A program made the translations under genes and the position numbers. The notes beneath the pieces were generated by a model. The model ran no database searches. It was not told where the DNA came from and saw only the letters and a program-made list of their open reading frames with translations. A stretch of DNA of 63,306 nt, from contig JAGWZH010000004.1 of NCBI GenBank assembly GCA_018971945.1, positions 1 to 63,306 on the forward strand. The letters run 5' to 3'. Numbering within the stretch: the stretch's first letter is position 1; every line of letters begins with the position of its first letter. This document shows, piece by piece, positions 5,798-63,306 of the stretch. Source of the stretch: Alphaproteobacteria bacterium (GTDB taxonomy: Bacteria > Pseudomonadota > Alphaproteobacteria > Caulobacterales > Aquidulcibacteraceae).

Positions 5798-6910
5798 ATG
5801 TTCACCTTCAGCGAAGAGCAAACTCTGTTGCAGGAAGCCGCCCGCGGCTTCGTCCAGGATCGGATGACCACCGCGCATGCCCGCGCCGTCCGTGACAGCC
5901 AGTCCGCGGATGGTTTTGATCGGGCCATGTGGGCGGAGATGGCGGCCATGGGTTGGATGGGGGTTTTGATCCCGGAAGAGCATGGCGGGTCTGATCTTGG
6001 CTATGTTGGTCTGGGTGTGATCCTTGAGGAGATGGGCAAGACCCTTGCCCCCGCCCCTCTCCATTCGACCGCTCTGATTGCGGCCTCGGCCCTTGCGATG
6101 GGCGGAGGGAGGGCGCAGAAGCAGGCTTTTTGGCCCAAGATCGCGGCTGGCGAGCTGATCGCCGCCCTCGCTGTTGACGAAGGTCCCCATCACCATCCGG
6201 ACGTCCCCCAGACCCGGGCGGAGAGGATCGGGGAGAGTTATCGCCTTTCCGGCCGAAAGACCTACGTGGCCGACGGTCATGTGGCGGATCTTATGCTTGT
6301 CGTCGCCGACGATGGCGAGGGCGCAAGCCTGTTTCTGGTTCCGAGGGAATCTGAAGGGGTGACCATCACGCCCATAGCGACCCTAGACAGCCGCGGTGCG
6401 GCCGATATCTCTTTTGAGAACGTGACGCTCGAGCTGGAAGCGCGCCTTGGCGGCCATGAGCTTGTGAACCAAGTGCTCGATCGCGCCCGCATCGGATTGG
6501 CGGCCGAACTCATGGGTCTTGCGCAATCCGCCTTTGACCAAACGGCGGATTATTTGAAGACCCGAACCCAGTTCGGTCAGCTGATCGGCTCGTTCCAGGG
6601 CCTTCAGCATAGGGCCGCGAAGATGTTGGTGGATCTGGAGCTGACCCGTTCCTGCGTGATGGCGGCGCTGGCCGCCTTGGACACAGGCGCGGAGGACAAG
6701 AAAATCGCTGAACTGGCCTCCCTCGCCAAGGCGAGAGCCGGGGAGACCGCGCACATCGTCACCAACGAGATGATCCAGATGCATGGCGGCATCGGCATGA
6801 CCGACGCCCATGACGCGGGGCTCTTTATCAAGCGCGCCCGGGTATTGGAGCATCTCTATGGCGGCGCGAGCTTCCATCGCGACCGCTTTGCGACCCTGGC
6901 TGGGATATAG
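5798..6910 (+). CDS. Acyl-CoA dehydrogenase (pair member 2)
   Basis: A 370-residue acyl-CoA dehydrogenase. Domains in order: N-terminal helices (FTFSEEQTLLQEAARGFV, MGWMGVLIPEEHGGSDLG), a short beta domain (GRKTYVADGHVADLMLVVA), and C-terminal helices with RTQFGQLIGSFQGLQHRAAK and MHGGIGMTDAHDAGLFIKRA. The usual IYEGT motif reads LYGGA, so the MCAD Glu376 position is Gly here too. Such shorter, divergent members often pair with a second subunit, as in the alpha2beta2 FadE enzymes of actinobacterial sterol degradation. The neighbour at 4044 is the obvious partner, which is inference from adjacency. The start at 5798 is set by homology (MFTFSEEQ). Confidence 0.87.
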   Translation: MFTFSEEQTLLQEAARGFVQDRMTTAHARAVRDSQSADGFDRAMWAEMAAMGWMGVLIPEEHGGSDLGYVGLGVILEEMGKTLAPAPLHSTALIAASALAMGGGRAQKQAFWPKIAAGELIAALAVDEGPHHHPDVPQTRAERIGESYRLSGRKTYVADGHVADLMLVVADDGEGASLFLVPRESEGVTITPIATLDSRGAADISFENVTLELEARLGGHELVNQVLDRARIGLAAELMGLAQSAFDQTADYLKTRTQFGQLIGSFQGLQHRAAKMLVDLELTRSCVMAALAALDTGAEDKKIAELASLAKARAGETAHIVTNEMIQMHGGIGMTDAHDAGLFIKRARVLEHLYGGASFHRDRFATLAGI

Positions 6911-53461: not shown

Positions 53462-54106
53462 GCAAGCGCAGGATTTCGGGCTGACCACAAGGCGCGGGTC
53501 CATCGGCCAGCGTCCAAAAGGCGGGCATAAAAAAGGGTCTGGCGCGAGGGGCGCTCGGCGCGCTGCGGCGCCCCTTGGACCACAAGCGCCAGTCGAAGAG
53601 ACGATGGCGGCGCGTTCGCAGAACCGGTCGCTGCGCAGCTGGCCGATGGTTCGGCCATCGGCGTTCCCGACCCCACCCCGCTCCGCCCTCTTCTGCTTAA
53701 GGATCATGGACCCCGACCCTGACCCAGACCCCGAGCCTGAGCTTTGGGCGCGCAGGGGCCGCCGCTGAGCCGGCGCGCGCTGTCTTTGTCGCGGGGACAA
53801 AGCGTCCTCTTTTTTGCCATGGGCGAGACACAAGCGCCCTTTAGGGCAGGAAGCGGCGCTTTCCGCAGCGATCCTTTTGCTTTGAGGCGGCCCGTGGCCG
53901 TTTGTTCGAGGGGGTCTCGGCTTCCCTGGGATGGCTTTGCGGCTGGTCTCCTCCCCCCACCCCCGAGGCGATCTGCGCCATGCCCCTGAATGGATTGCGG
54001 CGTACAGTCGGGGCTCAAATCGCGCTACCGAACGCCTGTTCTGACGCTGGGGGCCTCCAGCATCTTGGGCGTCAAGGGCGCTAAGGGGCGCGAGGGAGAA
54101 AGCCTG
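53462..54106. other. Intergenic stretch with a hexanucleotide repeat, no gene seen
   Basis: About 645 bases between coaBC and the ABC operon. A 6-bp repeat (GACCCC, GACCCT, GACCCA, GACCCC, GAGCCT, GAGCTT) occupies 53709-53744. Frames through this stretch on both strands read as low-complexity shadows. It should contain the promoter of the ABC operon, which I cannot locate with confidence. Confidence 0.5.
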
Positions 54107-55246
54107 ATGCTGGGCGTGGCCTTGAAAATGCTGATGGGAGACCGGGTGAAATATCTTGGTCTTGTTCTGGGGATCGGCTTCGCCACCTTGCTGATGACCC
54201 AGCAGGTATCGATTTTCATTGGCCTTCTGACCTGGGGCGCCAACGCCGTCCGCGATGTCCGCGAGGCCGAGATCTGGGTCATGGACCCCCGGGTGCGGCA
54301 GCCGGACGAAGGCCTCGCCCTCAATGACCAGGCGCTCTACCGGGTCCGCGGCGTGGAGGGCGTCGCGTGGGCGGCCCCGTATTTCCGCTCCACCGCCACG
54401 CTCAAAACGGTCGAGGGTCAAATCGCCGCGGTGACTTTGATCGGGGTGGACAATCAGAGCATGATTGGACTGCCGCCCGAAAACCGGGACGAGGCTGCGC
54501 AGGCCATACGCGGGCGCAACGCGGTGATCTTGGATCGAGACGGCTTGCGGCTGATTTGGTCCGACGGCCGCGATCCGATCGGCCAGGTGGCGGAAATCAA
54601 CGACAATCGGATCGTCGTCGCCGGACTGACGAACGCCTTGCCGACCTTCGCGGGCCTGCCTGTGGCGTACATGAAATACACCGACGCCATCGCCATCACC
54701 CCGCCTGAGCGCAACAAGTTGTCCTTTGTCCTGGTGCGCGCGACCGAGGGGCTCTCTCCTGGCGCGCTCGCCGCGCGCATTGAGCGCGAAACGGGCCTCA
54801 AGGCCATGACCAGGGAGGCGTTCGCCTGGGCCGGCGTCAATTACATTATCGAGAACACGGGCATTCCCATCTCGTTTGGGGTCGCCATCGCCTTGGGCGT
54901 GATCGTGGCCGTCGTCATCACGGCTCTGACATTGGCCATGTTCATCGCCGAGAATCTGAAAACTTTTGGAGCCTTGAAAGCCATCGGCGTCACCAATCGC
55001 CAGATCATGGGCATGGTCCTGGCCCAGGCCTGGTTTGTGGGATTGATTGGCTTCGGCCTTGGCATTGGCGGGACGGCGGCCTTTTTGTCCCAATCAGCCA
55101 ATAATCCGTCCTTGGAAGGGTTTGACATGCACTGGCAGGTGATCGCCGGAGCGGCGGCGGTGATCTTCCTCATCGTCACCTTGTCCGCTTTGGTCAGCGT
55201 GCGGCGCGTCCTGCGCATGGACCCCGCGATCGTGTTCAGGGGTTGA
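54107..55246 (+). CDS. ABC transporter permease, FtsX/MacB-type (DevC-like)
   Basis: A 379-residue permease with the four-helix MacB/FtsX fold. An N-terminal helix (YLGLVLGIGFATLLMTQQVS) is followed by a large periplasmic domain (residues about 45-245: AEIWVMDPRVRQPDEG; AAPYFRSTATLKTVEG), then three helices (VAIALGVIVAVVITALTLAM; MVLAQAWFVGLIGFGLGIGG; VIAGAAAVIFLIVTLSALVS). The cytoplasmic loop FGALKAIGVTNRQIMGMVLA is the FtsX-like hinge. The ATG at 54107 follows GGGAGA; 7 bases separate it from the ATPase gene. First gene of the exporter. Confidence 0.9.
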   Translation: MLGVALKMLMGDRVKYLGLVLGIGFATLLMTQQVSIFIGLLTWGANAVRDVREAEIWVMDPRVRQPDEGLALNDQALYRVRGVEGVAWAAPYFRSTATLKTVEGQIAAVTLIGVDNQSMIGLPPENRDEAAQAIRGRNAVILDRDGLRLIWSDGRDPIGQVAEINDNRIVVAGLTNALPTFAGLPVAYMKYTDAIAITPPERNKLSFVLVRATEGLSPGALAARIERETGLKAMTREAFAWAGVNYIIENTGIPISFGVAIALGVIVAVVITALTLAMFIAENLKTFGALKAIGVTNRQIMGMVLAQAWFVGLIGFGLGIGGTAAFLSQSANNPSLEGFDMHWQVIAGAAAVIFLIVTLSALVSVRRVLRMDPAIVFRG

Positions 55247-55253
55247 GCCGGCG

Positions 55254-55958
55254 ATGGCCCGCGCCTCTGTTTTCGCCGCCCAAGCCCGCGGGGTGGTCAT
55301 GGAGTTCGCCTCAGGGCCTGACCGCGTCCGCGTCCTGCATGGGGTGGATATGGACCTGCCCTATGGCCGCATGACTTTTCTGATCGGCCCGTCCGGGTCT
55401 GGTAAAACCACCATGCTGTCGATCCTTTCCGGCGTCCTCACCCCCACCCAGGGTGCGGTGGAGGTGATGGGCGTGCGTCTTGACAGGATGAGCGCTGACG
55501 CGCTGGTGAGATTCCGGCGCCGCAGCATCGGATTCATTTTTCAGCAGTATAATCTCGTCTCCGCCCTCACCGCCGCGGAGAACGCAGCCGTGCCCTTGAT
55601 TGCCGACGGCGAGCCCTGGGGACGCGCGACCATGAAGGCCAAAGACCTGTTGGATCATCTCGGCCTCGGCGACCATTTGCATAAATTGCCGCGCCAACTT
55701 TCTGGCGGACAGCAGCAGCGGGTGGCGATCGCCCGCGCTCTGGTCCATCGACCGGCGCTGGTCGTCTGCGACGAACCCACCGCGGCCCTGGATGCCGCTG
55801 CAGGACAGGCGGTGATGCGTCTTCTGGTCGAGGCGGCCGGCGATCCCGACCGCGCCGTTCTCGTCGTGACCCACGACGATCGGATCTATCGCTATGCTGA
55901 CAGCATTGTGTCCATCGAGGACGGCCGCATCCAAAAAGCCCCGCAGGAGCATGCCTGA
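55254..55958 (+). CDS. ABC transporter ATP-binding protein (MacB/DevA-type)
   Basis: A 234-residue ATPase. Walker A is [21 protein letters not shown]-loop [19 protein letters not shown], signature [17 protein letters not shown], Walker [18 protein letters not shown], and H-loop [15 protein letters not shown]. It powers the FtsX-type permease just upstream. The stop shares a base with the start of the adaptor gene (TGATG). Confidence 0.95.
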
Positions 55959-56890
55959 TGAAACCAAGCTTGCGTATGATGACCCGCGCGGCGTTGCCCT
56001 TGACCGCTTTGGGCTTGATCGGCTTCGCCGTGCTCGCCGCCCAACGCGACGACGCTGGCGCCCAGCAGACCCCGGTCGTCGACCCCTCCCGGCCGCCCGA
56101 GCGCTTCGGCGCGGTGGTCGCCGCCCTTGGCGTGGTCGAGCCCAACAGCGAAGTCATCGCAGTTGCCGCGGACCTCCCTGGCGTTGTCCGCGCCGTGTGG
56201 GTTCGTCCTGGGGACGCGGTCGAGGCTGGCGCCCCGCTTTTTCGGCTCGACAGCCGCAGCCTTGACGCCCAGATCGCCTCTGCGGAGGCTGCGGTGGCTT
56301 TGGCTGATGTGGAGGCGCGCGACGCCGCCGCCCGGCTTGGCTTGTACGCCGATGCCGGCGACACTCCCGCCATCTCCACCGACGAGCGCGACCGCGCCCG
56401 CTTCGCCGCCGACCGCGCTCAGGCTGCCTTGGCCCTGGCCCGGGCGGACCTGAACCGTCTGGAGACCGACCGCGCGCGCTTGACCGTCCGCGCCCCCATA
56501 TCGGGCGAGATCCTGGCGGTGAACATCCATGTCGGGGAATACGCAGCCCCAGGGCCTTTGGAGGATCCCTTGATCGCCATGGGCGACACACAGCCTCTGC
56601 ATGTCCGCGTGCAAATTGACGAGGAGGACGCCGCCCGCATCGCCGCTGGGGCCGCCGCCGAGGGGTCGCTGCGCGGCGCTGGGGCCGTTGCTGCGCCGCT
56701 CGCCTTCGTTCGGTTTGAGCCGCAGGCCGTGCCCAAGCAGAACCTGAACGGGGGGGCTGAGCGGGTGGACACGCGCGTCGTGGAAGCGATCTACGCGATG
56801 GAGCGCGACGCCCTTCCCGCCTTCGTCGGCCAACAAATGGACGTCTATGTTCAGGCGGCGCCCTTCGGCCAAGCGGCCAGGGCGCCGTGA
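55958..56890 (+). CDS. HlyD-family periplasmic adaptor (DevB-like)
   Basis: A 310-residue membrane-fusion protein with one N-terminal helix (ALPLTALGLIGFAVLAAQ). Two half-lipoyl segments flank a coiled hairpin: VVAALGVVEPNSEVIAVAAD / VRAVWVRPGDAVEAGAPLFR, and RLTVRAPISGEILAVNIHVG. The hairpin between them (residues about 100-170) is Ala/Asp-rich. A beta-barrel domain follows. It bridges the ABC permease and the outer-membrane factor encoded next; the genes overlap. Confidence 0.9.
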   Translation: MKPSLRMMTRAALPLTALGLIGFAVLAAQRDDAGAQQTPVVDPSRPPERFGAVVAALGVVEPNSEVIAVAADLPGVVRAVWVRPGDAVEAGAPLFRLDSRSLDAQIASAEAAVALADVEARDAAARLGLYADAGDTPAISTDERDRARFAADRAQAALALARADLNRLETDRARLTVRAPISGEILAVNIHVGEYAAPGPLEDPLIAMGDTQPLHVRVQIDEEDAARIAAGAAAEGSLRGAGAVAAPLAFVRFEPQAVPKQNLNGGAERVDTRVVEAIYAMERDALPAFVGQQMDVYVQAAPFGQAARAP

Positions 56891-58230
56891 TGGGCAAGGC
56901 CCTGATGCTCGGCGCGGCGGCGCTTGGTCTGTCCGCCTGCGCCACCCCTTCAGCGCGCGGCCCCGAGGTCCCGACCGCGCCGGACCGCTGGGCTTTCGCC
57001 AGCGCCCAAACCGAGACAGCGCAAAACCCTTGGTGGCGGGGTCTTTTTCCGGACCCTGCCCTCGCCGCCCTGGTGGAGGAGGCGGGACAGGGTCCTTCCG
57101 TCGCTGTGACCTTGGCGCGGCGCGAGGCGGCCGAGGCGCGTCTCCGGGCAGCCTTGCAGGCCTTGGCGCCGACTGGCGCTGTGCGCGTCGACTTGTCCGG
57201 CCGCGTCGAGGATGCGGCCGAGAGCGTCGTCGCTGGCGCGGAGTTCTCGATAGGATACAGCCATAATCTCGCCGGCGCCGAACGCTGGCGCGTCCGCGCC
57301 GCCGCTGCGCGGGTCGAAGCGGCGGATGCGACCCTTGCAGCCGCGCGCCTTGACGCGCGCGTCACCGCCGCTCGCCTGATCGCCGCGGCGCTGGCCGTCG
57401 AGGGTCAGCAAGCCGCCGCTCGGCGCGGCCTCGCCGCCGCCGAGGAGAGCCTGAGCCTCGCCCAGGCGCGCGTCAGCGCCGGCCTCGACAGCGCACTGGC
57501 TGCGGCCCAGGCCCGCGCCGCAAGAGACCGCCAAGCCGCGCTTCTGCCGCCATTGGCCCAGGCCCGCCTGCAAGCGCGTCTCGGTCTGGAGGCGGTTTTG
57601 GCGCGTTCCTTGGGCGGGCAAGCCCTGACCACGCCCGAGCCCTTCGCCCAAGCCCAGACGCAGTTTACAGACACCCCTGTCGCCGTCCTCGCCCGAAGGC
57701 CAGACATGCGTTTGGCGCTGGCCGATCTGGCCGCAGCCGACGGAGAAGCCGCCGCCGCAGAGGCTGATCGCTGGCCGACGATGTCGATCGCGACGATGTT
57801 CGGCTTCGCGGCTGCGGATCGGCCTCCTGACGGCGCGGTGGGGATGGTGACGGGCAGCCTGCTTGCGCCCATGCTCGGCGCCGCCCGCCGGGAGGCCCTT
57901 TCTGACGCCGCCGCCGCAGAGGCGGAGGCGGCGGCGGCTGAGGCGCGCCGCGCCTTCGCGGCGGCCATCGCGGATGTCGAGACGAGCCTGGTGCGCCTGC
58001 ATGAAACCCGAACAGCGCGGCAAGCCAGGGCCGCTGTCGTCGTCTCCGCTCAAGAACAGTCCGACCTGGCCCGCAGTCGTTACCTGTCGGGTCTGACGAG
58101 TTTTTTGGAGGTGACCTTGGCTGACGCGGCGCTTGCGGAGGCGGAATTCGGCCTCGCCCAGGCCGACGGCGCGCTTCTCGAAGCCCAGATCCTTCTCGCC
58201 GGCGCCCTCGGCTTGGGGGCTGATTTCTAG
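56890..58230 (+). CDS. Outer-membrane efflux lipoprotein (TolC/NodT family)
   Basis: A 446-residue outer-membrane factor with a lipobox (GAAALGLSACATPS). It has the two-repeat TolC layout: NPWWRGLFPDPALAALVEEA, long Ala-rich coiled segments, and the NodT signature PVAVLARRPDMRLALADLAA. The barrel-forming parts are near residues 70-115 and 290-325 (GMVTGSLLAPMLG). The start at 56890 shares a base with the adaptor stop. The stop codon TAG at 58228-58230 lies inside the first unit of the 11-bp array that follows. With the three genes upstream it completes a tripartite exporter; substrate unknown. Confidence 0.9.
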   Translation: MGKALMLGAAALGLSACATPSARGPEVPTAPDRWAFASAQTETAQNPWWRGLFPDPALAALVEEAGQGPSVAVTLARREAAEARLRAALQALAPTGAVRVDLSGRVEDAAESVVAGAEFSIGYSHNLAGAERWRVRAAAARVEAADATLAAARLDARVTAARLIAAALAVEGQQAAARRGLAAAEESLSLAQARVSAGLDSALAAAQARAARDRQAALLPPLAQARLQARLGLEAVLARSLGGQALTTPEPFAQAQTQFTDTPVAVLARRPDMRLALADLAAADGEAAAAEADRWPTMSIATMFGFAAADRPPDGAVGMVTGSLLAPMLGAARREALSDAAAAEAEAAAAEARRAFAAAIADVETSLVRLHETRTARQARAAVVVSAQEQSDLARSRYLSGLTSFLEVTLADAALAEAEFGLAQADGALLEAQILLAGALGLGADF

Positions 58231-58333: not shown

Positions 58334-60634
58334 ATGAAAAAGCTCTGGCTCGGCGTGTGTGCGGCGATCGCGTTGGCTGGGGCCCCAGAGGCTTCGGCGC
58401 AGGTCGCGCTGCGGCCGGGGGTGGCCGCGCAAGGCGAACTCAGCCCCGATGACGGCCGCCTGCAGAGCGGCGAATACAGGGACGAGTTCACAGTCCAGGT
58501 CCCTGCCGGCGCGGTCATCACGGCTTCAATGGAGTCAGACCAGTTCGACCCCTATCTGATGGTCCGCGGCCCTGGCGTCAGCGAAGACAACGACGACGCC
58601 CCGGGCCGCGGCCGCAATGCGCATCTGACGGTGACGGCGCCGCAAGCCGGCGTCTTCACCATCATCGCGACCAGCTTCCAGCCTGGCGAACGGGGGGCCT
58701 ACCGCCTGCGCGTCGATCTTGGGCAAAGCGCAGCCTCGCTCCCCGCTGCGGGCCCGGCCGCCGCAGCAACCCGTCTGACCCTCGACCGCGCCGTGACGGG
58801 TCAACTCGGTCCCAATGATCCGGCCATGCCCAACGGGGCCTTCGTCGACGCCTATCAGATCGAGGGCCGCGCCGGTCAGCGCTTCGAGATCAGCCTCGCC
58901 TCAGCCGCCCTTGATCCTTTATTGATGATCGATGGCCCTGGCCTGAACGCCATGAACGACGACGATATGGAGCGCGGAACCACCGACAGCCGTCTGGTGG
59001 TGACCCTTCCAGAGAGTGGTCTCTACGCCATCCGCGCCTCGAGTTACGGCCCACGCGAACGCGGCAATTATCAACTGATCGTCCGAGACGTCGGCGCCCA
59101 GCCAGTCCTCGCCTCCGCCTCGGTCGCCGTTTCGGGGGCTTCAGGCCAGGTTCTGTCGCTTGGCGCGGTCGCGCAGGGCGTCCTGCAGCAAGGCGATGAG
59201 GCGCTGATCTCCGGCGAGTGGACGGATCGGTATCGCTTCGAGGGCGTCGCGGGCCAGCGGGTGCGCATCACCATGACCGCCCAGGAGCTCGACGCCTATT
59301 TGATGCTGATCGGCCCAAACGGCGCGCAAGAGGAAAACGACGACGCAGCCGCCGGGGTGACCGATAGTCGTCTTGACGCCATCCTCAGCGAGGACGGCGT
59401 CTATACTGTGGTGGCGACGACCTATCGTCCCGGCGAATCCGGCGCCTACGCGCTCTCGATCATTGATCTGAGCCGCGCGGATGGGGCGCCCGTCATCGCC
59501 GCGGCGCCGCCTCCGCAGAGCCCGGCGGCCGTTTCTGGCGGCGCCGCCTTGACCATTGACCGCCCCGTCAGCGGTCGATTGGCGCAAGGGGACGCGCGTC
59601 TGCGCTCAGGCGAGTTCATGGACACCTATCGGTTTGAGGGACGCCGTGGCCAGCGCGCCACCATCACCCTGACGTCCAGTGAGTTCGACCCGTATTTGAT
59701 GATGGTCCAGCCTGACGGCCGCCAGATCGAAAACGACGACAGCGGCGACGGCTCCTTAAACAGCCAGATTGTTCAAGTGCTCCCCGAAGATGGGGTTTAT
59801 GAGGTCACAGTCACGAGCTACCAGCCTGGCGAGACGGGCGGCTACGCCCTCACCTTGGGCTTTGAGGCGACGGGGGTGGCTGTCAATCAGCAGCGGACCG
59901 ACGGCCGCATTTTCGCTGTTCTGGTGGGCGTCTCCGACTATGCGGGAACGGCCAATAATCTTGAGTTCACCGCGGAGGACGCGGTCAAGCTTGGCGAGAC
60001 CCTGGAGTTGCGCGGCGTTTTGGCGCCTGGCAGCATCGTGCTGACCGAAGCGCAAGCCACGGTCTCTCGGGTCCGGCAGGCGTTCCAGCAAGTCGCGGCG
60101 TTGGCGGGCCCGGGCGACACATTCTTGTTCTTCTTTTCCGGCCATGGCGTTCAGAATCGCGGCCAGCCGAGCCCCACCGAGCCCGATGGTTATGAAGAGG
60201 CGATCGTGCTCCGCGACGGGCAGATCTCGGACAATGAGCTCGCCCAGTGGTTTGGCGGCGTTCGCTCGCGGGTGGCGCTGCTCGCCATCGACGCCTGCTT
60301 CGCTGGCGGTTTCGCCCGAGACGTTGTGAGCCGCCCGAATGTCATGGGCCTGTTTTCTTCCGAGGAGGATCTGACGAGCTCCGTCGCCGACAAGTTCCGG
60401 GCCGGCGGCTATTTGTCTTATTTTCTGCGCAACGGCCTTGCGGGAGACAGCGACGCAGACGGCGACGAAGTCATTACAGCGGGCGAGCTGTCGGCCTATC
60501 TGCGCCGGGAGTTCGCAAGCGAGGTGACCCATGTCGAGGCCACCACCACCGAGGGCCAAAGGAACTATCAGTTCCTGGTCATCGACAGGGGCGGTGTGAA
60601 AATCGACGATGAGGTGGTCGCCCTCAGGTCCTGA
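58334..60634 (+). CDS. Secreted caspase-like (C14) protein with four PPC-type domains
   Basis: A 766-residue exported protein. The signal peptide ends near residue 22 (AGAPEASA). Four repeated PPC-type beta domains start near residues 26, 148, 274 and 405; each has the pattern G-x-L-x-x-x-D-x-x-x-x-x-G-x-(Y/F/W)-x-D followed by DPYLMxxGP-like and ENDD segments. The C-terminal caspase domain starts near 521 (GRIFAVLVGVSDYAG). The catalytic pair is His604 in FFFSGHGVQN and Cys655 in LLAIDACFAGGFARD. An EF-hand-like loop (DSDADGDEVITAGEL, residues 705-719) lies within the protease domain, suggesting calcium dependence as in metacaspases. It converges on the PilZ operon, with 7 bases between stops. 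Substrates unknown. Confidence 0.9.
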   Translation: MKKLWLGVCAAIALAGAPEASAQVALRPGVAAQGELSPDDGRLQSGEYRDEFTVQVPAGAVITASMESDQFDPYLMVRGPGVSEDNDDAPGRGRNAHLTVTAPQAGVFTIIATSFQPGERGAYRLRVDLGQSAASLPAAGPAAAATRLTLDRAVTGQLGPNDPAMPNGAFVDAYQIEGRAGQRFEISLASAALDPLLMIDGPGLNAMNDDDMERGTTDSRLVVTLPESGLYAIRASSYGPRERGNYQLIVRDVGAQPVLASASVAVSGASGQVLSLGAVAQGVLQQGDEALISGEWTDRYRFEGVAGQRVRITMTAQELDAYLMLIGPNGAQEENDDAAAGVTDSRLDAILSEDGVYTVVATTYRPGESGAYALSIIDLSRADGAPVIAAAPPPQSPAAVSGGAALTIDRPVSGRLAQGDARLRSGEFMDTYRFEGRRGQRATITLTSSEFDPYLMMVQPDGRQIENDDSGDGSLNSQIVQVLPEDGVYEVTVTSYQPGETGGYALTLGFEATGVAVNQQRTDGRIFAVLVGVSDYAGTANNLEFTAEDAVKLGETLELRGVLAPGSIVLTEAQATVSRVRQAFQQVAALAGPGDTFLFFFSGHGVQNRGQPSPTEPDGYEEAIVLRDGQISDNELAQWFGGVRSRVALLAIDACFAGGFARDVVSRPNVMGLFSSEEDLTSSVADKFRAGGYLSYFLRNGLAGDSDADGDEVITAGELSAYLRREFASEVTHVEATTTEGQRNYQFLVIDRGGVKIDDEVVALRS

Positions 60635-60641
60635 GGCCGGA

Positions 60642-60965
60642 TCAGGCCGCGCCGCGCCGCACGCCGAAGATGCTGATATCGACAAGATCCTTGAACGCGA
60701 TCCCGTAGCCGCGTTCGATGGTGTTCATCACTCTTCCTTCGACGCGATTGCCTGCGAAGGCGACCTGCACCATGTCGCCGCTTCTGTTCATCAGGTAGTG
60801 CTGGAAGGGCCGGAACAGGCATCCGCCTTCGCTGACATTGAGGATCATGCCTTCGACCTCGATGTCTCTCGGCAGCAGCACAAGCCCGGCCGTCAAGCGC
60901 ACATCGTAGCGTCTATGTTCTGCGACGCGCTTGGGCCGAAAAGGATTAGGCAACACGATACCCAT
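60642..60965 (-). CDS. PilZ domain protein, predicted c-di-GMP receptor
   Basis: A 107-residue stand-alone PilZ protein. Both ligand motifs are intact: RxxxR as R19-YDV-R23 (HRRYDVRL) and [D/N]xSxxG as N43-VSEG-G48 (LNVSEGGCLF). The rest is the PilZ barrel (MVQVAFAGNRVEGRVMNTIE; RGYGIAFKD). It starts 3 bases after the stop of the MotA/ExbB-like gene, so it is surely cotranscribed. By analogy with YcgR it may tie c-di-GMP level to the activity of the membrane protein; that is inference. Confidence 0.92.
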   Translation of the reverse strand: MGIVLPNPFRPKRVAEHRRYDVRLTAGLVLLPRDIEVEGMILNVSEGGCLFRPFQHYLMNRSGDMVQVAFAGNRVEGRVMNTIERGYGIAFKDLVDISIFGVRRGAA

Positions 60966-60968
60966 TGA

Positions 60969-62972
60969 TCACTCTCCCACGGCCTTCGCCATGATCGGGT
61001 TGGCCGACTTGAGCGCTTTGGCGGTTTCGGCGGCGACTTTCTCGGTCCGTTCTGCGATGCGATGGCTGGCGCTCAGATGTTGCTCCAGCCGATCGATCTT
61101 CACATCCAGGAGCGCTTTGGTTTGGTTCAGTGTCGAATTGAGCCGCTCGACGCCGCCCTTGGCGACGATTTCGCCGCTGTCCATCAGTTCGTCGATCCGC
61201 TTCACCAGCATGTCCATGCTGGAGATGACTTGGCGCTGCGCTTTGGAGATCGCCACAGCGCTCCGCGTTTCGTCGCGCCGCTGTTCGTCCATCCGGCGCA
61301 AGACCTGCCGCGAGAGCTGCTGGGTGGCGAGCATCGCCCGTTCGAGCTGCTTGCCCTTCTCCTCGCTGACGCTTTTGCCCAAGCTTGGCGCGCCTTCGCC
61401 TTTGCGCTGACCCATGACATGAGCGAGCCGCGCCATGAGCGCCCGGGCGCCGGTCTCGTTCGGATCCTGAGGGAGCGCCTGGGCTGGCATGGGGAAGGGA
61501 GGCGTCATCATCGCCTGTTGCATTTGCGCAGGCGTCAAGGCGGGCCCAGCGCCTGTTGGGGCCTCGCGGCGCATGCGTCCGACCATCACGGGCGCTGCAT
61601 GCTGCACCGGGGCTTGTGGGGCGTTTTCTTGTCCGCCGCCCATGCCGACTGCGCCGAGCGGAATCTCTGGTCCTTGGGAAATGCGGAAGGCCAAGTCTTG
61701 CATGACCGTGCGGGTCTCTTCCGCCGACCGCGACGCCGCTTCGATCGCGCTCACAATTCTCAGATTCTGATCGCTCGCCTCCTGGTTCATCGAGGCGAGC
61801 TGTGCCGCCAGGTCCCGCTGCGATCTGGCGAGGCCGGTCAAAACCTCTCCCAAAGCGGTCCGGCTCTCGGCTTCCGCAGATTGTCTGAGGCTGGTGGCCA
61901 GGGCGAACATGGTGGCGTTCATGTCCGACAACAGACGATTGGTTTCATGGCTCTGCTGTTCGTTGCGCTGCAGCTGCTCAAGCAGCGCCGCGGAATCATC
62001 GCTGACCGACAAAGTGCTCCGCTGATGACTTTGGGCGTGCGCAGAGATTTGGGTCGGCTCAGCGACATGATCGGCCATCTCCAGATGCGCCAGATCAATC
62101 AAGCAGGCCTCGAACTCGTTGCGCACAGCCTTCATGGCGCTGATCATGAAGCGATCCAAGACGCCTATGACCATTGAGAAGAGCAGACCGAACAGGGACG
62201 ATGAGAATCCCACCGACATGCCGTGCAGGGGCTTTTTCATCCCCTCGATCATGGCGTTAAAGCCGCCGCCGCCGTCTCCGCCAAGGCTGCCGATCAATTC
62301 GCCCACGGACGAGACCGTCTTCATCAGGCCCATAAAGGCGCCCAGAAGCCCTAAAAACACCAGAAGGCCGCCAAAATAGCCCATTGTGGCTTGGGCGTCC
62401 TTGATCCGATGATCGACATCGCCGACCAGGATATGGATGGTTTCCGTCGGCAGCTGCCCTTTATTGCGGGTCAGCAATTCTTCCGTCACCAGACGGTAAC
62501 CATAGCCCAAGAGCTTTGGCTTCTTGAACACCCTGGCCGGGGAGTTCACCACGTCTTGGGAGGGTCTTGGCTCGCCGAAATCGACCCGCAGCGCATCCAG
62601 CGCCTTCTTCTCGTTCCGCATTTGCAGAACATTGTTGATGCTGATCCCGGCCGCGAGCAGGAACACGCCGACGATCGTGAGATTAAGGGCGGCTTTCGCC
62701 ATGATCCCTTCGATGACGAATTCGTGCGCGTAAATCCCAAGCCCTGCAAGACCGATCAGAAACACAAACTGCCGAATGATCGCTTCGCGGATCTTTCCGT
62801 TGAGATCCACTCTCGGGCCAAGCTTGGCCTGCATGAGAGCAGCCCGTCCCTGTTGGGCGGGCGCTTGGCTATCCTCCTCTGACCAGCCGACAGGCAAAGG
62901 CTGCCGCGCGCCGGTCGCCGCCCGCGATGGCGGCGCAGCGCCGTTACGGTTTGACAATGACACGTACTGCAT
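60969..62972 (-). CDS. MotA/TolQ/ExbB-type channel protein with long coiled cytoplasmic tail
   Basis: A 667-residue inner-membrane protein. Two helices near residues 66-86 and 95-114 are followed by a cytoplasmic loop. Then comes the MotA/TolQ/ExbB core: TM3 about 197-221 (FLGLLGAFMGLMKTVSSVGE) and TM4 about 251-273 (GMSVGFSSSLFGLLFSMVIG). The remaining 390 residues form an Ala/Gln/Arg/Glu-rich, mostly coiled tail (LLEQLQRNEQQSHETNRLLS; MDEQRRDETRSAVAISKAQR) broken by a Pro/Met-rich linker near 440-520. ATG at 62972 has AGAGGG upstream and overlaps the OmpA-like gene by 29 bases. Topology and tail recall ZorA, but the operon partners differ. Confidence 0.88.
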   Translation of the reverse strand: MQYVSLSNRNGAAPPSRAATGARQPLPVGWSEEDSQAPAQQGRAALMQAKLGPRVDLNGKIREAIIRQFVFLIGLAGLGIYAHEFVIEGIMAKAALNLTIVGVFLLAAGISINNVLQMRNEKKALDALRVDFGEPRPSQDVVNSPARVFKKPKLLGYGYRLVTEELLTRNKGQLPTETIHILVGDVDHRIKDAQATMGYFGGLLVFLGLLGAFMGLMKTVSSVGELIGSLGGDGGGGFNAMIEGMKKPLHGMSVGFSSSLFGLLFSMVIGVLDRFMISAMKAVRNEFEACLIDLAHLEMADHVAEPTQISAHAQSHQRSTLSVSDDSAALLEQLQRNEQQSHETNRLLSDMNATMFALATSLRQSAEAESRTALGEVLTGLARSQRDLAAQLASMNQEASDQNLRIVSAIEAASRSAEETRTVMQDLAFRISQGPEIPLGAVGMGGGQENAPQAPVQHAAPVMVGRMRREAPTGAGPALTPAQMQQAMMTPPFPMPAQALPQDPNETGARALMARLAHVMGQRKGEGAPSLGKSVSEEKGKQLERAMLATQQLSRQVLRRMDEQRRDETRSAVAISKAQRQVISSMDMLVKRIDELMDSGEIVAKGGVERLNSTLNQTKALLDVKIDRLEQHLSASHRIAERTEKVAAETAKALKSANPIMAKAVGE

Positions 62973-63306
62973 GGACGCCCTCTGTAGCCTCAACCGCGCG
63001 CACTTGCGCCGAAATGGATGTGGCCGGCACGCCGGCGCGGATCAAAACATTGCGCGCCACCAGCGCGCGATAATAGGCGAGCCGCTCGGCCTCCGAGACG
63101 GTGCTCGTCGTGGGAGCCTCTGACCAGATCTCCAATGAAGCGCCTGGTGGGATATTAGCCCGCTGAATAAGCGCAATCGCCTGTTCTTGAATGGCCCTGC
63201 CGACACGCACGGCGGCTGGCTCGAACTCCAGCGTGAATAAAACATCGGCGCTTTGGACGATTTCACCGCCTTCGACCGACTCGTCCTGGTCGCTCTCCAC
63301 CGTGAA
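62944..63306 (-). CDS. OmpA-like domain protein, N-terminus beyond right edge
   Basis: The C-terminal 120 residues of a protein whose start is outside the window. The visible part fits an OmpA/MotB-type peptidoglycan-binding domain: VLFTLEFEPAAVRVGRAIQE, then IPPGASLEIWSEAP, and ERLAYYRALVARNVLIRAGV with PATSISAQVRAVE. The Arg of the LSxxRAxxV motif is kept (YYRALVARN), but the Asp that normally precedes it (TDxxG) is not evident, so murein binding is uncertain. It is the first visible gene of the operon with the channel and PilZ genes, where a MotB/ZorB-like partner would be expected. Confidence 0.7.
   Translation of the reverse strand, partial: FTVESDQDESVEGGEIVQSADVLFTLEFEPAAVRVGRAIQEQAIALIQRANIPPGASLEIWSEAPTTSTVSEAERLAYYRALVARNVLIRAGVPATSISAQVRAVEATEGVHAVRVIVKP

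Follow-up and report, generated by a model that had tools for sequence, protein, structure and literature searches.

What does a pair of stator-like membrane proteins do when its genes are accompanied by one for a PilZ protein? This question is raised by three leftward genes at the right end of an alphaproteobacterial contig (C176), which was analysed over its whole length of 63,306 bp and is called the window below; it belongs to a draft genome of 233 contigs with a completeness of 99.26%. The three genes (62944..63306, 60969..62993 and 60642..60965, all on the minus strand) encode a MotB/SiiA-like B subunit, a MotA/TolQ/ExbB-type A subunit and a PilZ protein, and are referred to as the triad (motB, motA and pilZ); their partners lie beyond the contig edge. 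An earlier sequence-only reading of the window had placed three leftward genes here, an observation that was confirmed, and had interpreted them as an ion-driven envelope machine gated by c-di-GMP through PilZ and possibly of an undescribed stator-like kind, an interpretation that was partly supported. On the basis of gene content, conservation, the fold of a B-subunit homologue, sequence motifs and linkage to secretion genes, we consider it likely, with a probability of roughly 70%, that the triad serves a type I secretion system (T1SS) for a giant RTX surface protein as its energy and control unit, similar to SiiAB of Salmonella and switched by cyclic di-GMP (c-di-GMP) through PilZ.

Conservation of the triad beside secretion genes

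Relatives of the triad were chosen by similarity of the A or the B subunit and not by the presence of PilZ, which gave 14 triad loci in 14 genomes, the window included. The A subunit of the window forms a distinct group with those of seven other genomes among the 398 of the order (E values from 3.5e-40 to 9.0e-33; L114-L120). A first contig scan with the MotA protein found no relative, and a second one with the MotB alignment returned five named loci, two of which repeated the A-subunit set; they belong to a Parvularculaceae metagenome-assembled genome (MAG), Sphingobium sp. CECT 9361, a Sphingomonadales MAG and two Alphaproteobacteria MAGs. Judging from genome G354, the other members of family f5 in the order are presumably Parvularculaceae as well. 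A scan of the order of Sphingobium detected a triad-type B subunit (E <= 7.4e-60) in five of 396 genomes, which added three genomes to two that had been found before. L139 and L140 share their contigs with L118 and L119 (equal lengths and the same proteins) and were not counted separately, and two loci of genome G443, which belong to a different branch (L121 and L122; PilZ in 0/2), were kept apart from the 14.

PilZ follows the triad-type motA in all 12 loci with DNA past that gene, the window included; the contigs of L120 and L212 end before that point, and the pilZ genes of L117, L141 and L211 were identified by a listing of open reading frames (ORFs) together with a six-frame search. Since the pair is kept in each of the 12 testable loci, the pairing of motA with pilZ is more than chance. 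The position of motB was found to vary: it is divergent from motA-pilZ in L114, L118 and L119, upstream on the same strand in the window, L141-L143 and L210-L212, and 27 kb away in genome G329, beyond an RTX ORF of 6,964 aa. The occurrence of the same members in different gene orders argues for a functional link, and the 14 loci show the set to be kept in distant genomes.

In 11 of the 14 genomes (G366, G329, G436, G354, G778, G779, G780, G988, G1090, G782 and the genome of the window), giant RTX ORFs and/or T1SS genes stand no more than approximately 5 kb from a triad gene; the genome of the window has T1SS genes only and by way of a second contig, C57, described below. The other three triad genomes (G414, G460 and G578) are represented by contigs of 11.3, 3.9 and 3.2 kb, and for the first of these 7,347 of 11,346 bases were examined for RTX/T1SS genes. 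RTX calls were made with Pfam for L114, L118 and L119 and with a motif regular expression for the other loci; T1SS calls were made with Pfam/NCBIfam for L138, L142 and L117 and with phmmer against L142 for the others. The fullest set is that of G988 (L210), where an HlyD gene is divergent from the row ABC-motB-motA-pilZ-TolC-RTX, and in G329 (L213/L216, C1:1518495-1539389) a single ORF of 6,964 codons, in which 149 RTX-like motifs were counted, stands between motB and the T1SS genes. As controls, 40 loci of a widespread paralogue were used, which span 3.9-13 kb and were picked by score or frame length and thus non-randomly; PilZ (E <= 1e-3), HlyD (E <= 1e-15) and an RTX-rich ORF were present in 0/40 of them. 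The supposed lack of effector genes, and with it the free-standing machine, was therefore not upheld: the contig end cuts off T1SS genes, which in the relatives are accompanied by giant RTX genes.

The two putative halves of motB and the anatomy of the subunits

The motB gene of the window (62944..63306, minus strand) has its 5' end off the contig, and what is present encodes the C-terminal 120 residues, with the OmpA-like domain and an RLAYYR motif; this fragment matches the hidden Markov model of the family at E 2.2e-25, and its Pfam OmpA match is below the cut-off (E 0.016). When the genome was searched with the complete B subunit of a relative (E up to 10), two places only were found, this fragment and the end of C57 (6,760 bp), where positions 6379-6760 encode a B-subunit N-terminus, NPWPAFVDVLTTVIMVVTFLLVIMSAAVM, whose transmembrane helix has an aspartate at its start. 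Both pieces run off their contig ends, both have the same best four among 10 family members, all of the Sphingomonadales type, and in tetranucleotide signature C57 compares with the window at 0.927, inside the range of 0.895-0.959 given by nine pieces of the window. We thus regard both pieces as parts of one putative motB joined across the two contigs, between which homologues suggest that some 100-150 bp are missing. The N-terminal helix expected of the OmpA-like partner would, with this join, be the one on C57.

In the rest of C57, an HlyD adaptor gene (TIGR01843, 365.7 bits, cut-off 208.65) is divergent from the row of an LssB-like T1SS ABC transporter, a GGDEF-EAL protein and motB. The transporter scores 617.9 bits with its best model, below the cut-off of that model (693.1). 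The GGDEF-EAL protein (639 aa) is encoded directly upstream of motB and has an intact GGDEF motif; its EAL domain passes the Pfam cut-off and has a signature that reads EAI, from which we take this domain to be degenerate. The protein is a probable local cyclase. Together with the motA-pilZ pairing, the neighbours on C57 bear out the proposal of a stator-like A/B pair with a dedicated PilZ protein outside flagellar and Tol-Pal loci. Seven RTX-repeat matches were also observed in this genome, all on contig C25 (L131, G000:C25) within an ORF that is cut by the contig start and spans at least 2,296 codons; it is a candidate substrate with no positional link to the triad.

With regard to the B subunit, the structure predicted for a full-length homologue from Sphingobium (L142) consists of a helix (residues 13-66), a low-confidence linker (66-139) and an OmpA-like domain, in line with the identity that had been assigned to the fragment. 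This model superimposes on the SiiA domain 6qvp_A with a Z score of 12.1 (2.4 A over 95 residues), SiiA being seventh in the fold ranking and within 2 Z units of the rows for OmpA, Pal, MotB, TagL and YfiB. Two arginines five residues apart are invariant in the triad B alignments, the window included; residues 140-239 of the model align on residues 109-204 of the SiiA chain, ranges which would be compatible with an equivalence of the two arginine pairs.

The A subunit (60969..62993, minus strand; up to 674 aa) has a four-helix channel core, residues 64-308 of the 674-aa ORF (62070..62804), which was delimited by alignment and by a predicted structure of modest confidence, and which holds the conserved stretches GLxGxFxGLMxT and PLxGMxxGFSSSLFGL. 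Its AlphaFold model is weak (mean pLDDT, the predicted local distance difference test, of 53.8) and was used only for the order of helices: four long ones (64-96, 101-140, 183-237 and 244-308) and then the cytoplasmic tail. Among Foldseek matches, ExbB, TolQ and ZorA chains ranked best, all with non-significant E values above 0.01, the Pfam MotA_ExbB match is below its cut-off (11.6 bits vs 22.9; E 0.25), and no significant match of functional value was obtained when the MotB and MotA alignments were searched against PDB sequences. The four long helices and the ExbB/TolQ matches agree with the assignment to the MotA/TolQ/ExbB type. A long coiled tail had been described as well; the tail is indeed long, with approximately 366 residues (309-674; 60972..62069, minus strand, at the same low model confidence), but it is not a single continuous coil, since it has two helical stretches between which residues ~440-540 are modelled as disordered.

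The PilZ protein (60642..60965, minus strand; 107 aa) is intact, as had been claimed, with a Pfam PF07238 score of 26.3 bits against a cut-off of 22.5. Motif inspection located RxxxR at R19-R23 (60897..60911, minus strand) and NxSxxG at N43-G48 (60822..60839, minus strand), and the order RxxxR then [D/N]xSxxG is that of a putative c-di-GMP receptor. RxxxR is present in all 12 triad PilZ proteins, in a shifted register in that of the window, and the first residue of the second motif is canonical in six of them, the window included, E in five and S in one. As that residue is replaced, the five E-type proteins and the S-type one may not bind c-di-GMP.

The spacing reported for the three genes was reproduced in part. 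The gap between the motA stop and the pilZ start is exactly three bases (60966-60968), and the overlap of 29 bases between motB and motA applies only if motA starts at ATG 62972. The longest motA ORF, from TTG 62993, gives an overlap of 50 bases, and with a start at ATG 62834, near which the N-termini of A-subunit relatives align, 109 bases would separate motA from the motB stop. The last of these candidate starts agrees best with the relatives.

SiiAB as the closest known device and the rival explanations

The closest known device is SiiAB of Salmonella pathogenicity island 4 (SPI-4), so that the triad is hardly an undescribed class of stator-like system. SiiAB is likewise a MotA/MotB-type pair, and its genes accompany those for a T1SS and for a giant secreted protein (PMC6272769, PMC12607715). 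In both systems the B subunit has a single transmembrane helix, then a disordered linker and a peptidoglycan-binding fold, its two halves lying on two contigs in the genome of the window. Both B subunits also have two arginines five residues apart, which may be equivalent; in SiiA, R162 and R167 are needed for peptidoglycan binding (PMC12607715). SiiAB is described as a proton channel without which secretion of SiiE persists and invasion of polarized cells does not, and surface retention of SiiE is reported to rise with the proton-motive force (PMF) and to fall with an uncoupler (PMC6272769, PMC12607715). A 2025 review calls it unclear how SiiAB uses PMF to control the retention of SiiE (PMC12607715); a 2025 paper that lists SiiAB among PMF motors makes no mention of PilZ in its main text (PMC12204202). 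By contrast with SiiAB, the triad adds PilZ in every testable locus and, in the genome of the window, a GGDEF-EAL gene, and its giant protein has RTX repeats, whereas SiiE is described as a non-RTX protein with BIg repeats (PMC12607715). The long tail of the triad A subunit may be a further difference.

In the proposed mechanism, the MotA-like protein, probably as a pentamer, and the MotB-like protein, probably as a dimer, would form an ion channel at the T1SS exporter, the B subunit contributing one transmembrane helix with an aspartate and a domain of the peptidoglycan-binding type. By analogy with SiiAB, ion flow would either keep the giant adhesin in the exporter or release it. PilZ would bind both c-di-GMP and the cytoplasmic face or the tail of the A subunit and thereby switch the unit, and in the genome of the window the GGDEF-EAL protein, whose gene stands between the T1SS transporter and motB, may supply the signal locally. 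High c-di-GMP would, by analogy with LapD, favour retention, and the bacterium may thus hold or release its adhesin in response to c-di-GMP. The more specific picture of PilZ as a clutch on the A tail, by which a local second messenger makes the 5:2 motor hold, reel or release the RTX adhesin, is a tentative one.

Control by c-di-GMP over the surface retention of a giant T1SS adhesin such as LapA is described for LapD-LapG (PMC6584795, PMC6272769); there it involves a c-di-GMP receptor and a periplasmic protease, whereas in the triad PilZ would be coupled to a PMF motor. If this holds true, the PilZ clutch would be a second, protease-free route of c-di-GMP over giant adhesins, and the known roles of PMF-driven 5:2 motors would be wider. 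A SiiAB relative with its own PilZ, and with a probable cyclase in one genome, makes it directly testable whether c-di-GMP switches such a motor and whether the motor retains the adhesin or lets it go. No report joining PilZ with a SiiAB-type T1SS motor was found among the matches listed in the open-licence PMC literature (titles, term counts and abstract beginnings).

Several points weigh against an energy and control unit of this kind. The contact between PilZ and the channel, the ion flow and the binding of c-di-GMP are all inferred, and so is the operon in the genome of the window, which is pieced together across a contig break because the ends of C57 and C176 share no overlap. In the stretches examined, this genome is the only one of the 14 with a GGDEF-EAL gene near the triad, and its RTX-repeat protein was found only on another contig, C25. 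The second PilZ motif is canonical in only half of the 12 proteins, and SiiA, the one SiiAB subunit that was compared, is on a par in the fold search with many more domains of the OmpA-like kind. As for the controls, their choice was non-random, in many of them the T1SS ABC query picks up ordinary ABC transporters as well, and at one of them, L054, a GGDEF-type ORF lies approximately 5 kb away from motA. The triad fork of the A-subunit tree described below misses firm support, and in G443 giant neighbours with weak RTX matches occur where PilZ is absent.

Among the rival explanations, the one that survives best, though we regard it as unlikely, is that PilZ acts on the T1SS transporter or adaptor and turns secretion on or off, A and B working independently, for instance as a constitutive sensor of PMF. 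PilZ is indeed encoded in the same cluster as the ABC transporter in several loci, an adjacency that by itself cannot tell which protein is contacted. However, PilZ comes directly after motA wherever this could be tested, and it does so even in L114, L118 and L119, where the T1SS ABC query had no match in the 12-13 kb fetched.

Another possibility, to which we give little credence, is that the motor serves surface motility or gliding, by moving a filament or layer of RTX protein on the surface, and not the retention of an adhesin. PMF motors of the same superfamily are described as driving gliding and type 9 secretion as well (PMC11890865), and giant RTX proteins could form surface filaments; the gene set, however, resembles SPI-4 with its T1SS plus SiiAB (PMC6272769, PMC12607715).

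A role as auxiliary flagellar stator with a YcgR-like brake is very improbable. All 12 genomes that were checked for FlhA, namely G443 and 11 of the 14 with a triad, have it, and the triad bacteria are therefore probably flagellated. YcgR-type PilZ proteins act on flagellar stators, which would suit such a brake. Nevertheless, the triad loci are T1SS/RTX loci, the A subunit falls below the MotA_ExbB cut-off, and motB is preceded on C57 by T1SS and GGDEF-EAL genes, while FlhA of this genome is on C126 and its typical MotA-like gene on C33 (TolQ- and ExbB-like genes being on C156 and C70; the last three were named by inspection). A flagellar MotAB stator was rejected on these grounds, and so was a TolQR/ExbBD system, the genes on C57 and the next gene of the window being HlyD, ABC, GGDEF-EAL and caspase-like ones and not tolA, tolB, pal or tonB. 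The weakest candidate, an anti-phage motor of the Zorya type, can draw on a weak PADLOC match to ZorA (15.9 bits, E 8e-4), on ZorAB in the non-significant fold list and on a long cytoplasmic tail like that described for ZorAB, a MotAB-like 5:2 motor (PMC11890865), and was dismissed with 14 bits against the curated NCBIfam ZorA_4 cut-off of 500, a PilZ subunit, and identified neighbours that are T1SS/RTX genes, the effectors ZorC/D and ZorE having been looked for by PADLOC profile in four window proteins.

Distribution of the triad and side observations

The A subunit belongs to a large family, with matches in 189 of 289 genomes of the class at E <= 1e-3; among 25 genomes of the family of the window, none but its own gave an A-subunit match. 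With the B profile, 261 of 385 genomes of the class sample match at E <= 1e-5, and only that of the window goes beyond the 2e-16 level, as triad type. In the order, 27 of 398 genomes match at E <= 1e-12 and six reach 1e-20, namely the genome of the window, G366, G436, G354, G329 and, with no PilZ beside its A genes, G443. A collection of plasmids contributed three records with weak, partial A-subunit matches. The triad is patchily distributed, and transfer or repeated loss is likely.

In a tree of 55 A-subunit sequences, from which L116 was left out and whose bootstrap had not fully settled, the 13 triad rows stand on one fork with a support of 97/77, short of the tree program's own mark for firm support, and the 40 controls on another (100/99). 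The A subunit of the window groups with the Sphingobium-type rows (100/99). The triad rows split into a clade with A subunits of 458-511 aa and PilZ proteins of 157-161 aa and one with A subunits of 547-674 aa and PilZ proteins of 107-143 aa; a helical piece that shifted between the A-subunit tail and PilZ would be in keeping with a contact of the two, for which two clades are a weak basis.

The closest A-subunit relatives outside the triad are those of the widespread alphaproteobacterial MotA-like/MotB-like pair to which the controls belong. The downstream B partner of this pair has the same WPG[FY]VD helix motif in 6/6 loci inspected; the pair differs from the triad in its mostly shorter A and longer B subunits, its separate tree branch and the neighbours missing from the control loci. 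At these loci (L040-L079), a MotB-like gene usually adjoins the MotA-like gene, often near an ABC transporter of roughly 600 aa, and B-type matches lie on both sides in 22/40 loci and on one side in 17/40. The idea of two B subunits was dropped: the downstream protein is the one with WPG[FY]VD in each of these six loci, and in the upstream protein the part of highest hydrophobicity is signal-peptide-like in 5/6 and ambiguous in 1/6.

In G443, two diverged MotA-like genes (L121, L122) each precede a giant ORF that matches RTX weakly, and B-type genes lie elsewhere, beside HlyD genes (L214, L215); this set appears to be a related arrangement of the same kind without PilZ. A glycosyltransferase of ~415-475 aa is encoded in triad loci L118, L119, L141 and L211 and adjoins motB in the first two (Pfam was run on L118 only); it possibly modifies the giant protein.

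Within the window, a gene convergent with pilZ (58334-60634, plus strand) encodes a 766-aa protein with four pre-peptidase C-terminal (PPC) repeats and a caspase-like (C14) domain, and a row at 53990-58230 (plus strand) reads by inspection as an ABC exporter with permease, ATPase, HlyD-like adaptor and TolC-like outer membrane protein.

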